A stretch of 64,000 nucleotides of DNA, from the NCBI RefSeq assembly GCF_021533835.1, contig NZ_JAKFYQ010000001.1, forward strand, positions 1,708,079-1,772,078. The letters run 5' to 3'. The notes beneath the pieces are model-generated. The model saw nothing but the letters and a program-made list of their open reading frames with translations, had not been told where the DNA came from and did not search any database. Positions 22,676 to 46,460 of the stretch are shown here, one piece after another; position 1 is the first letter of the stretch; each line of letters opens with the position of its first letter. This DNA comes from Synechococcus sp. Nb3U1. Its GTDB lineage: Bacteria > Cyanobacteriota > Cyanobacteriia > Thermostichales > Thermostichaceae. A program made the translations under genes and the position numbers.

Positions 22676-23302
22676 ATGACTTTTTTGAAGCGCGTCAGTG
22701 ACTATGTGGGCGATGCAGTGAATGCCGCCAAATACATTGGCCAGGGTATGGGGGTGGTTTTTGACCATATGGGTCGGCGCCCGGTGGCGGTGCAGTATCC
22801 CTTCGAGAAGCTGATCCCGTCCGAGCGCTTCCGGGGGCGTATTCACTTCGAGTTTGACAAATGTATCGCCTGCGAAATCTGCGTGCGGGTGTGCCCGATC
22901 GATCTGCCCGTGGTGGACTGGGCCTTTAACCCGGAGCTGAAAAAGAAAGAGCTCTACAGCTACAGCATCGACTTTGGGGTGTGCATTTTCTGTGCCAACT
23001 GTGTAGAATTTTGCCCCACCAACTGTCTCTCGGTGACAGAAGATTACGAGCTGGCTGCCTACGACCGCCACGACCTCAACTATCACCAGGCGGCGATGGG
23101 CCGGCTGCCCTCTAAGGTGACGGAAGACCCGATGGTCACGCCACTACGCGAGTTTGCCTATCTGCCCAAAGGGGTGATCGATCCGCACGAGTTACCCGCC
23201 GGATCCCAGCGGGCAGGCAGACGACCTGAAGAGATTTTGGCCGAAATGCGAGCCGCCAAAGCAGCAAAAGAAAAGGAAGCCAAGCCTGCTGCTGTCAAAT
23301 AG
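22676..23302 (+). CDS. ndhI: NAD(P)H-quinone oxidoreductase subunit I
   Basis: NdhI carries two 4Fe-4S clusters that link the ferredoxin side to the quinone site. The motifs are [14 protein letters not shown] and [15 protein letters not shown] chose the ATG at 22676 ([14 protein letters not shown]), which has an AAGGAG site upstream; an in-frame ATG at 22634 would add 14 hydrophilic residues. The length of 208 residues is normal. In many cyanobacteria ndhG and ndhE come next. Here the DNA downstream is an insertion element on the opposite strand, and neither gene is in the window. Confidence 0.96.
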
Positions 23303-23324
23303 TGCTGGAGACAGGTGTGAAGTA

Positions 23325-23413
23325 CCCGACGCTATGGCTTGCTTCCCGCAGGGTTGCTCTGCCTACAGCGCGGGCTTCTCTGATCAACCGCGACAGCCTC
23401 GGAGAGGGTAGAC
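23325..23413 (-). other. right end of tnpB element, possible reRNA scaffold
   Basis: Read on the minus strand, this follows the tnpB stop. A stem forms between AGCGCGGG (23367-23374) and CCCGACGCT (23325-23333), with one unpaired A, and encloses a second smaller foldback. In the IS605 family the right end is transcribed as the guide (omega or reRNA) scaffold of TnpB. The same stem sequence recurs in two solo elements in this window. Whether RNA is made is not shown. Confidence 0.45.
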
Positions 23414-24556
23414 TTACGCCTTAGGTCTTACATCGCGTCCTAGAGCAGCAGCCCCACCTCCTGAGGCCGAAATCCGCAAGCCTTCATTTCTTCTGATATT
23501 AATCTCTGCGTTGATGTCCCTATCATGCCGTTCTTGGCAGTGAGGGCAGACAAACGAGCGCATCGATAAATCCATATTTTCTAGCGGTAGCAGCGTATTT
23601 GAGCAAAGATGAGAGCTTGGGAAGAATCGCCCAACCTCCAGGTACACTTTACCTTCAAACTCTGCTTTGTATCTGAGCATGGTGCAGAACTGCCCCCAGC
23701 CAACATCCTTGATTGACTTGGCCAGGTTGTGATTCTTGACCCTATTCTTAACCGCTAGATCTTCCACCACAATCACTTGGTTTTCGTTCACTATCTTGCG
23801 GGATAGCTTGTGATGAAAGTCTTCTCTCGCTCTGGCAATTTTGGCATGAACCTTAGCAACTCTGATTCGTGCTTTGTTTAGATTTTGACTACCTTTCTTT
23901 TTTCTAGACAGCTTGCGCTGCTTCCGTTTCAGGTTGCACTCATGCTTCTTGAGATGCCTTGGATTGGCAAACTTAGAACCATCAGAAGTAACAGCAAAGT
24001 CTGTCAACCCCAAGTCAATCCCAATCGCTTTTCCCTCACTGGAAGATTCAGACTTTTCTATGCCGTCCTCTACCAGTAGCGATGCAAAGTATTTTCCATC
24101 TGGCATCTTTGACACCGTGACAGTCTTCAATACTCCCTCAATCGGTCGGTGAATCTTGGCTGCAACAACCCCCAGAGAACCAGGGAACTTAATCGCAGAC
24201 TCAGAAGTTACTGTGACGTTTTGGGGAAACTGAACAGACTGGCGATGATGCTTCGATTTGAAATTGGGATACTTCGCCCTACCTGCAAAGAAGTTCTGGA
24301 ATGCCTGAGACAGATTCAGTACCGATCACTGTAAACACTGTGAATAAGATTCTTTCAGCCATTCATGCTCAACTTTCAGCACTGAGATTTGTTTCTTCAT
24401 GTTGAAAGCAGAGATTCCCTTACCTGTCGTTTTTTACGTTTCCGTCATGATAGACAAGCAATGATTCCACAGCCATCGCGTACAACCAAAATGCTTGGCT
24501 AGCGTGATGGACTGCTCATCAGTGGGATAAATTCTGACCTTAATTGCTTTCAGCAT
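23414..24556 (-). pseudogene. tnpB: TnpB (RuvC-like nuclease), two in-frame stops
   Basis: The reading frame from the ATG at 24556 encodes a whole TnpB (MLKAIKVRIYPTDEQ to the C-terminus) but is broken by TAA at codon 41 (24434-24436) and TGA at codon 77 (24326-24328). The remaining open part begins at a TTG at 24130. RuvC residues survive: Asp in GIDLGL, Glu in VIVVEDLAV and Asp in RHDRDINAEIN. The zinc finger is also damaged: the first pair reads LCSNT where LCSxC is expected, while CPHC is intact. TnpB cuts DNA guided by its right-end RNA and helps the element persist; this copy should be inactive. Confidence 0.9.
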
Positions 24557-24589: not shown

Positions 24590-24656
24590 AAAGAATCATC
24601 TGTTGAGAGGCAGGGATAGTTTGTTCCTTCGCTTCGCTCAGTCATGCGGCTCTCAT

Positions 24657-24724
24657 CCCGACGCTGACCTTTCAGGTACAGTGCGGGGCTAGGAACGACC
24701 TGCGGTCTACCCGCTTAATAGCTA
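24657..24724 (-). repeat. solo right-end-like element A
   Basis: CCCGACGCT (24657-24665) pairs with AGTGCGGG (24680-24687) around an inner ACCT-TTC-AGGT hairpin. The next 40 bases (GGGCTAGGAACGACCTGC, then GTCTACCCG) are nearly identical to element B near 46 kb. No coding sequence is attached. It begins 50 bases past the glutamate synthase stop and is oriented so that read-through from that gene would transcribe it as stem plus downstream sequence. Confidence 0.55.
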
Positions 24725-24775
24725 AATAGGCCTCTTGGTCTTTTCCTCTGATTTGGAAAAGGCTGCCACAGGCAC

Positions 24776-27700
24776 TCAAGAGGATACGGCTACCGTCTTG
24801 GCTTGGGTCAAATTCGTCAATTCTGTACCCTCTTCTGAAGGCGGGATCACTTGCCAGAACTGAGGTAGATAAGTTTCCCAATCTTGCAGGATCCGTTCCG
24901 CTTTCGGGGAATTGGTGAGGCGATAGTGCTCTTGAATGAGTCCCTTCAGTTGGGCCTCTGCCGCTGCCGTCTGCACCCGTTGGATCCGTACAATCTCCCC
25001 ATTCACCTTGGCAGGGAAGTTGCCCTGTTCATCCAGCACATAGGCCAAGCCCCCCGTCATGCCAGCCCCCAGGTTGCGACCCACCCGGCCCAGCACCACC
25101 ACCACGCCGCCGGTCATGTACTCGCAGCAATGATCGCCGGATCCCTCGATCACCGCCTGGGCACCCGAGTTGCGCACTCCAAAGCGTTCCCCTGCTTGCC
25201 CGTTGGCAAACAGATAGCCCCCCGTCGCCCCGTACAAACAGGTATTGCCCAAAATCACGTTTTGCGAGGGATCCCGTTGCGCGGCGGCGGGGGCTAGGAG
25301 GACGATCTCACCCCCACACATGCTCTTGCCTACGTAGTCGTTGGCTTCCCCCGTCAGGGTAAGACGCATTCCCGCTAGAGTAAAGGCCCCAAAGCTCTGC
25401 CCAGCGCTGCCGACAAAGCGCAGATCCAACTGCCCTCCCTGCTGGGCAAAGCCTGTATCGCCATGCAGGCGGGCTATGGCTCCGGCAATTCGTCCGCCCA
25501 CACAGCGATCCGTGTTGACGATCGGGGTTTCCAGAGTCGCCGTACCACAGGTTTCTAAAGCCTTTTGGGTCTCCGGTTTTGCCAGGAGCTCGTCATCCAG
25601 CACTGGGCCGTTGGAATGTACCGGCTCATGTTCCAACCAATCCGGTAGGGTTTTGGCCTCGGTGACAGGGATCCCAAGCAAACAATCCAAATTCAAGGAA
25701 TTCGTTTTTTCCAGCCGCGCATCGGCCCGAGGGCACAGCAGCTCCACCCGCCCGATCACCTCTTTCAGGGAGCGATAGCCCAGTTGGGCCAAAATTTGGC
25801 GCACCTCATCGGCAACAAAGGCAAAGAAGGTCACCACATGCTCTGGGGTGCCGGGGAAGCGCTTGCGCAACTCTTCTTTCTGGCTGGTCACCCCGACGGG
25901 GCAATTGTTGGTGTGGCAGACTCGCGCCATAATGCAACCTTCGGCGATCATGGCCACGGTGCCAAAGCCAAACTCCTCCGCCCCCAGCATGGCCGCCATC
26001 ACCACTTCCCAGCCGGTGCGAATGCCGCCATCCACCCGCAAAATCGAACGATGCCGCAGGCCATTTTCTAGGAGCGCACTGTGAACCTCTGCCAGACCCA
26101 GCTCCCAGGGCACCCCGGCATGCTTGATGGAACTCAAGGGTGAAGCGCCTGTCCCCCCTTCATGCCCAGAGATTTGGATGATATCGGCGTTGGCTTTGGC
26201 CACCCCAGCAGCCACCGTACCGATGCCAATTTCCGAGACCAGCTTCACCGAAACTTTAGCCTGGGGATTCACTTGGTGTAGATCAAAAATCAGTTGGGCC
26301 AAATCCTCGATCGAATAAATATCGTGGTGGGGTGGCGGCGAGATCAAGGTCACCCCCGGTTTGGAGCGCCGCAGCTTGGCGATGTAGGGGCTAACCTTTT
26401 TGCCCGGCAGTTGCCCCCCTTCCCCCGGTTTAGCCCCCTGAGCCACTTTGATTTCAATCTGCTGGGCATTGATCAGATATTCTGGCGTCACCCCGAAGCG
26501 ACCGGAAGCCACCTGCTTGATGGCCGAACTGGCGTTGTCCCCTGCCTTCAGGCCCTTCAGATGGGGAAAGCGAATGGAAGTTCCGTCGGCAACGACATCC
26601 GTGATGGTGAGATACCGCTCCGGATCCTCGCCGCCCTCGCCGGAGTTGGATTTACCACCGATGCGGTTCATGGCAATAGCCAAGGTTTCGTGGGCCTCGC
26701 GGCTGAGGGCACCCAAAGACATACCCCCTGTAGCGAAGCGTTTGAAAATTTCAGAAGCGGGCTCCACCTCCTCCAGAGGAATGGGATCCCGGTCGCTCTT
26801 AAAGTCCAACAGATCCCGCAGGGCGGTGGGGGTGCGGCTCCGCAAATGGGCCTTGTAGGTTTCGTAGTGGGCGGGCTGACCGGATTCGATGGCTTTGTGC
26901 AGCAGCTTGGCCATTTCCGGGCTGTTGATATGGTATTCCCCTTTGGGTCGGGCTTGAATGAAGCCAAAGTTTTCCAGCTTCTTCTGGCTCAACTCCGGGA
27001 AAGCCCGCTGGTGGTTGAGCATCCCTTCTCGGGCTAAATCCGCCAGGGTCATGCCCCCCACCCGCGACACTGTACCTCGGAAAGCGATATCAATCACCTC
27101 TTGGCTAAGGCCGATGGCTTCAAAGATCTGCGCCCCGTGATAGCTAGACAGCAGGGAAATGCCCATTTTGGAGAGAATCTTGAGCAACCCCGCCTCGATC
27201 CCAGCTCGGTACTTCAGTTGCACCTCCGGTAAAGAAAGCCGGGGCAACTTGCCGGATCCCATCTGGGTTTGGGTTTTAGGTTTGTGCCACCACTGCCGCA
27301 CCGATTCATAGGCCAAATAGGGGCAAATGGCACTGGCCCCGTAGCCGATCAAACAGGCAAAGTGATGGGTACTCCAGCATTGGGCGGTTTCCACCACCAG
27401 CGAGGTTTTTAGACGCAGGCCCTGCTGGATGAGATGATGATGGATCGCTCCTACCGCCAATAAGGGCGGGATCAAAGCCTGCTCGGCATTCAAACCTCGG
27501 TCAGAGAGAATCAGAATTTCTGCCCCGGACTGTACAGCCGCTACGGCTTCCTCACACAGGGATCCAAGGCGAGCTCTTGAGCCTTGTGGGCCATCGGCAA
27601 CTGGGTAGAGAATCCCCAGGGTTTCACAGGGGAAAGGTGTGTGCTTGAGGGCTTCTAGCTCAGCTTCGTTGAGCACCGGGCTACGCAACTGTAGCAGGCG

Positions 27701-45825: not shown

Positions 45826-45912
45826 CCTTGACCACTCTCGAACCAGCTTTTTCAGCTTTGAAAGTGAGTATGTCAATGAATTGACTCTACAGATAGTGTG
45901 TTTGTCCCTCCT

Positions 45913-46021
45913 CCCGACGCTATGCCTACGGCAGGCTACGCCAACACCTTACCCTTCGGCAAGCAAGCTACAGGGAGAGCGCGGGGCTAGGAACGACCTG
46001 CAGTCTACCCGTCTAACAGCT
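45913..46021 (-). repeat. solo right-end-like element B
   Basis: CCCGACGCT (45913-45921) pairs with AGCGCGGG (45978-45985), enclosing foldbacks such as TGCCTACGGCA. The following 40 bases (GGGGCTAGGAACGACCTGC, then GTCTACCCG) match element A at 24.7 kb with few changes. The end of the element overlaps the stop codon of the VOC gene. No transposase is attached. It may be a MITE-like remnant of an IS605 element or a tnpB-free RNA scaffold; see findings. Confidence 0.6.
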
Positions 46022-46460
46022 AACCTTGGGGATCCAAGTTCATAGCCTGCCAAAAAGCCGGGGACGGTTGGTGCAACACAATGTGGTTGCCATCCGGGTC
46101 GGGAAAGTCCACCTCCTGCCCATGAAAGTCCTGTCGAACCGGAGAAGCTGCGATCCGATAGTCTTCTAGCACCGCCTGGATTTCCGACAGGGATCCCTGT
46201 AAATCCTCCACCTGCAAACAGAGGCTCATGGCGCTGGGCCGGGCCACAAAATCCGGATGATGGCTGTGATGGCGCTCCGCGCCGTGCGAGGCACGATAGA
46301 GGCCCAACCGCAATCCCAACAGTCGAAACTCCACGTACACCGGCTCCCCATCGGTTGGGATTTGTGCTTGCGCAGGGATCCCCAGCAAAGACTGATAGAA
46401 GTGCTGCAAGCGGGGCAAATCGGGGGTGGCCAGGCTGATCAAAACCGCAGGGATCCGCAT
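46020..46460 (-). CDS. VOC (glyoxalase/bleomycin-resistance) family protein
   Basis: This is a small protein of the vicinal oxygen chelate fold, 146 residues from the ATG at 46460; an in-frame TTG two codons earlier is possible. Both beta-alpha-beta units are visible: LISLATPDLPRLQHFYQSLL and SLCLQVEDLQGSLSEIQAVL. The ending VDFPDPDGNHIVLHQ is the usual metal-ligand strand. A histidine-rich loop (GAERHHSHHPDFVARP) is unusual and may bind metal. The substrate is unknown. The stop codon is inside solo element B. Confidence 0.8.
   Translation of the reverse strand: MRIPAVLISLATPDLPRLQHFYQSLLGIPAQAQIPTDGEPVYVEFRLLGLRLGLYRASHGAERHHSHHPDFVARPSAMSLCLQVEDLQGSLSEIQAVLEDYRIAASPVRQDFHGQEVDFPDPDGNHIVLHQPSPAFWQAMNLDPQG

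Follow-up and report, generated by a model that had tools for sequence, protein, structure and literature searches.

In the 64-kb stretch of DNA analyzed here (the window), an IS200/IS605-family element of 1.4 kb lies between gltB and ndhI on the minus strand, from 24726 to 23317 and 3' of TTTAG. It is of the tnpB-only form, with no Y1 (HUH) TnpA gene within its limits. Its tnpB is a pseudogene (23414 to 24556, minus strand) with HTH_OrfB, OrfB_IS605, and TNB/zinc-ribbon domains (matches to PF12323, PF01385, PF07282, and NF038281/NF040570), all in one frame that is broken by two in-frame stops (24434 to 24436 and 24326 to 24328). The right end (RE; 23317 to 23374, minus strand) has a GAAG foot just before a hairpin, CCCGCGCTG...TAGCGTCGGG, and the tip TACTTCAC. 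The same layout is seen in the REs of two related elements, L058 in the source genome and an intact one in genome G005, and this end is expected to be the 3' part of a reRNA/omega-RNA scaffold. Judging from ISDra2, the reRNA of which consists of about 150 nt from the tnpB 3' end plus the RE and is guided by about 16 nt of the flank (PMC8612924), the adjoining flank ACCTGTCTCCAGCACT (23301 to 23316, minus strand) would be the 16-nt guide of the element's reRNA.

Element A, which the first-pass annotation took for a solo guide-RNA-like element, is located about 90 bp before the tnpB start codon (24556) and inside the same element. Read on the minus strand (24726 to 24647), it starts with TTTAG, followed by a tip, a hairpin, and GGGATGAGAGCCG; the full order is TTTAG-CTATTAAGCGGG-TAGACCGCAGGTCGTTCC-TAGC-hairpin-GGGATGAGAGCCGCATGACTGAGCGAAGCGAAGG. 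The TTTAG (24722 to 24726) is a conserved left boundary and presumably the site that TnpA targets and cleaves on the left (consensus NTTAG): three IS605 copies start there, and NTTAG stands to the left of nearly all others, i.e., insertion is 3' of a fixed tetra- or pentanucleotide. The left end proper (LE; 24647 to 24721, minus strand) contains the tip, the hairpin, and the start of a conserved LE interior, and the tip carries an 18-nt insert, TAGACCGCAGGTCGTTCC (24692 to 24709, minus strand), that is evident from an alignment with a sister genome (G002) and from pattern counts in the genus. The presumed TnpA-binding hairpin, CCCGCACTG...CAGCG-T-CGGG (24657 to 24687, minus strand), has an invariant unpaired T in its 3' arm. 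Its outer stem is formed by CCCGACGCT (24657 to 24665) and AGTGCGGG (24680 to 24687) around a small inner hairpin and includes one mismatched pair (A-C), which is what decay would give.

As claimed at first reading, the same outer stem (CCCGACGCT...AGCGCGGG) recurs at the tnpB right end (23325 to 23374), and it is the end hairpin of the IS200/IS605 family. Within the window, the two-arm pattern matches at A and at the RE only, and 100 shuffles give no match; thus, the hairpin of A is real and not a chance pairing. Thermodynamic folding alone does not discriminate it (z of about -0.6 to -2.1). The LE and RE hairpins are alike in sequence and orientation and are subterminal at both ends, as would be expected if a trans-acting Y1 transposase bound both ends of the cut strand.

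About 20 stretches related to A were found in the source genome. A plasmid search gave no match. A relative in G002 aligns with the window element end to end, from TTAG to TACTTCAC via LE, tnpB, and RE; its LE and RE hairpins are 1,333 bp apart (1,332 bp in the window element), and its single tnpB frame reads through both stop positions. The source genome also holds three near-identical 1,920-bp IS605 copies (L058, L059, and L060) with tnpA and a 443-amino-acid TnpB ORF. All three begin exactly at TTTAG (TTTAGCTTGATTGGCGGG...), with an A-like hairpin 40 nt in (TTTAGCT...hairpin...GGGATGAAAG), and their right part reads GAAGCCCGCGCT...GTCGGGAGTAGTTCAC, also given as GAAGCCCGCGCT...GAGCGTCGGGAGTAGTTCAC; the flanks are unrelated immediately beyond these limits, and there is no target duplication. 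Their intact relative in G005 (137-amino-acid TnpA and 426-amino-acid TnpB) has the same LE hairpin and the same LE interior (GGGATGAGAGCCGCG), and another copy in the source genome keeps LE, tnpB fragments, and RE within 698 bp. Taken together, the G002 alignment, the hairpin spacing, and these further copies make it almost certain that A is the left end of the 1.4-kb element. A is therefore not solo, since the element used for comparison is the very one it belongs to, and it is neither a remnant of the miniature inverted-repeat transposable element (MITE) kind nor a free-standing scaffold, but an ordinary transposon end, the left tip of a broken IS605-type element. No empty site was found on the ndhI side, where synteny is broken in all five relatives.

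The window element agrees with the tnpB-only form of IS200/IS605 elements such as IS608 and ISDra2, whose general mechanism is summarized in PMC7290912, in its TnpB, in the similar and like-oriented hairpins near both ends, in insertion 3' of a short fixed target (NTTAG), in the right tip TCAC, and in the lack of target duplication; full copies related to it carry the Y1 TnpA domain (PF01797) as well as the TnpB domains. It differs in that its tnpB is broken by stops, in that tnpA is missing from this copy, and in the 18-nt insert that separates tip from hairpin in LEs of the source genome. The stem of IS608 likewise has an unpaired T. All three tnpA copies detected in the source genome (e.g., L058, 957 to 1247) share one amber stop, at a position where the G005 TnpA has W, before a C-terminal helix that we take to be the holder of the catalytic tyrosine. 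Because the same amber occurs in copies at different sites, the mutation probably preceded the spread of L058, L059, and L060, which would then have been mobilized in trans or multiplied by another route. A fourth element is apparently divided between the ends of contigs C3 and C4, so that its tnpA is out of view. With its tnpB reduced to a pseudogene and no intact TnpA detected in the source genome, the window element is probably immobile.

Element B (45911 to 46023, minus strand), the other candidate of the first-pass annotation, is of a different kind. It has the same arms as A (45913 to 45985) around a longer loop and, in accordance with the initial description, neither tnpA nor tnpB in its 113 bp. 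B sits between unrelated genes and joins an LE tip to an RE arm, with no terminal inverted repeats; five more gene-free copies (L007, L009, L011, L013, and L016) likewise consist of an LE tip, a single hairpin, and an RE-like tip. Hence, of the proposal that A and B are MITE-like remnants, the part on B stands, as an LE-RE fusion, while A has its place in a tnpB element. B is a nonautonomous derivative, its LE and RE presumably having been joined at a single hairpin when the core was lost. It resembles palindrome-associated transposable elements (PATEs; PMC3119063, PMC7290912), which arise from IS605 elements by end fusion (PMC3119063): B, L007, L009, and L011 are similarly short, lack transposase and terminal inverted repeats, and have IS605-type ends, apparently through core loss. 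PATEs, however, keep two near-terminal palindromes, whereas in B and the L007-type copies the ends are fused around a single hairpin. By description only, they are also comparable to the ISSoc2-derived MITEs of hot-spring Synechococcus (Nelson et al. 2012, as cited in PMC10969869), which are miniature derivatives of an insertion sequence too; the source genome appears to resemble thermophilic Synechococcus. The joined flanks of six miniature copies are adjacent in no relative, synteny being broken in each of them, and no empty site was found. L014 resembles the miniature copies at first sight, but it is followed by letters that look like the remains of a tnpB, which makes a left end the likelier identity. 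The hairpin loops of B, L007, L010, L074, and others contain GGCGTAGCCTGCCGTAGGCATAG-like repeats that also occur in distant cyanobacteria and are possibly small dispersed repeats inserted into the hairpin.

The search for further genomic copies that had been proposed as a check was carried out by BLAST and by pattern, with the reversed pattern as control. A relaxed hairpin pattern gives 18 matches in the source genome and 78 across six genomes of the genus; the reversed pattern gives none. For the covariation analysis, the arms alone were aligned, since loops differ among copies. The unpaired T of the 3' arm is invariant, and base pair 6 alternates between G-C and A-T (30 G-C, 8 A-T, 2 G-T, and 3 A-C among 43 unique hairpins), so that the expected covariation is present as a compensatory change that keeps the stem (Fisher p = 4e-5, with kinship ignored). 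In a set of 21 arm pairs, the observed number of both-side changes is reached by 31 of 500 shuffles, a weak signal, and slid registers score far worse. Covariation indicates that the paired form matters, and it fits RNA and single-stranded DNA alike. Because the hairpin is as common to left ends and miniature copies as it is to right ends, binding by a Y1 transposase is the simplest reading. From what is established for the family, a DNA hairpin bound by TnpA is the best-supported role, and the hairpin of A was most likely recognized as DNA by the transposase.

The competing proposal held A to be a TnpB guide-RNA (reRNA) scaffold that stands by itself, is transcribed by read-through from gltB, and works in trans. 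It draws on the identity of the A stem with the RE hairpin stem and on the position of A downstream of gltB on the same strand. A reRNA, by comparison, is placed at the RE and overlaps the tnpB 3' end (PMC8612924); the RE of the window element has this position, while A lies at the opposite end, upstream of tnpB. What follows the A stem is not a site-specific flank that could provide a guide but conserved element interior (ATGAGAGCCG..., ATGAGAGCCGC-TGACTGAG) that recurs in copies elsewhere, and A lacks the scaffold body, a stretch of roughly 100 nt that three right ends conserve ahead of the hairpin. With element interior after the stem and no scaffold body before it, A is not a guide RNA, and we consider this proposal extremely unlikely; the 3' part of the TnpB guide RNA would have come from the RE and not from A. 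A shows no promoter-like site, and Rfam, HEARO included, gave no match in the window at the gathering score and none in the copies at an E value of 0.1, the HEARO model having matched in 0 of 14 control genomes and thus being without a positive control. Transcripts of gltB (minus strand, stop at 24776) may run on into A, but this would not turn A into a guide RNA. Two other identities suggested by sequence motifs were rejected: a HEARO/IscB guide RNA, to which the GGGATGA behind the stem had pointed (Rfam gave no match, and the neighbors are TnpB and Y1 TnpA), and a GTAG/CGTC-tagged REP (CGTC is here within the stem arm, with no unpaired tag outside the palindrome). That A drops out as a candidate for an independent guide RNA illustrates that a copy of the RE stem close to tnpB can be merely the other end of the element. 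The exact limits obtained here for an IS605 family in this genus allow its true reRNAs, guides, and miniature derivatives to be annotated.

An RNA function might be sought in the single-hairpin copies such as L007, in which an RE-like tip TTCAC and a unique flank could make short RNAs loadable by a related TnpB. L007, L009, and L011 do end in GTAGTTCAC or GTATTTCAC before unrelated flanks, but an LE tip instead of the RE scaffold body precedes the hairpin in copies of this type, B also lacks the conserved stretch of roughly 100 nt that forms this body, and the RE-like tip of B is degenerate (GGGAGGAGGGAC); on balance, such RNAs are highly improbable. The left-end stem-loop of IS200 has been reported to block incoming transcription. 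With this precedent, and with several copies lying directly behind stop codons, the hairpin could have its main role at the RNA level, terminating transcription of the preceding gene or stabilizing its mRNA, and be retained for that. Yet there is no T-run after the stem on either strand, a terminator scan passes over the hairpin, the copies are decayed to varying degrees, and the order of parts in the element accounts for the placement, all of which leaves this role very unlikely beside recognition of the hairpin by TnpA.

The proximity to stop codons is an excess: an open frame of at least 150 codons terminates at the left TAG in 6 of 17 copies, compared with 2 of the 57 TTTAG sites that the window contains (p = 0.001). 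It would be accounted for if the insertions that survived were the harmless ones. In B, the TTAG at 46020 to 46023 provides the stop codon of an upstream glyoxalase-like ORF, and L005, L006, L018, L019, and L060 also begin exactly at the TAG stop of the preceding gene. In L006 (1501 to 1578), a truncated left end takes up the entire space from a stop codon to the ATG that opens a DppA-like gene (M55 peptidase-like, as judged by eye), and the left-end ATGAAAG may serve as the start of this gene.

In the source genome, all 19 LE tips of the A type carry TAGACCGCAGGTCGTTCC, intact or slightly decayed. The insert is absent at this position in the sister species, according to the G002 alignment and the genus pattern counts, and no true uninserted copy was found in the source genome, the lone match with one mismatch (L143) having neither an NTTAG tip nor a hairpin arm. 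It occupies one exact place in the LEs of two diverged tnpB types (31% identical). It is conceivable, if doubtful, that the 18 nt are a small mobile repeat that entered the LEs of two TnpB types and of miniatures, with CTAG replacing the GAAG hairpin foot. Such a repeat could have spread by repeated targeted insertion or by LE exchange and altered which TnpA can use the ends; it would then parasitize or silence IS605 elements, as a small repeat comparable to SMR-A of Haloquadratum. Stretches resembling the 18 nt occur in other contexts in G002 (L153, L156, and L159) and G005 (L154 and L157). Genomes G004 and G001 contain many near-identical 31-nt hairpins (e.g., L111, L116, L110, and L115) whose left tip differs (TCAGCTAGAAATCGCAGGAGC) and whose downstream sequence is common to them; they probably represent another IS605-type family at high copy number.
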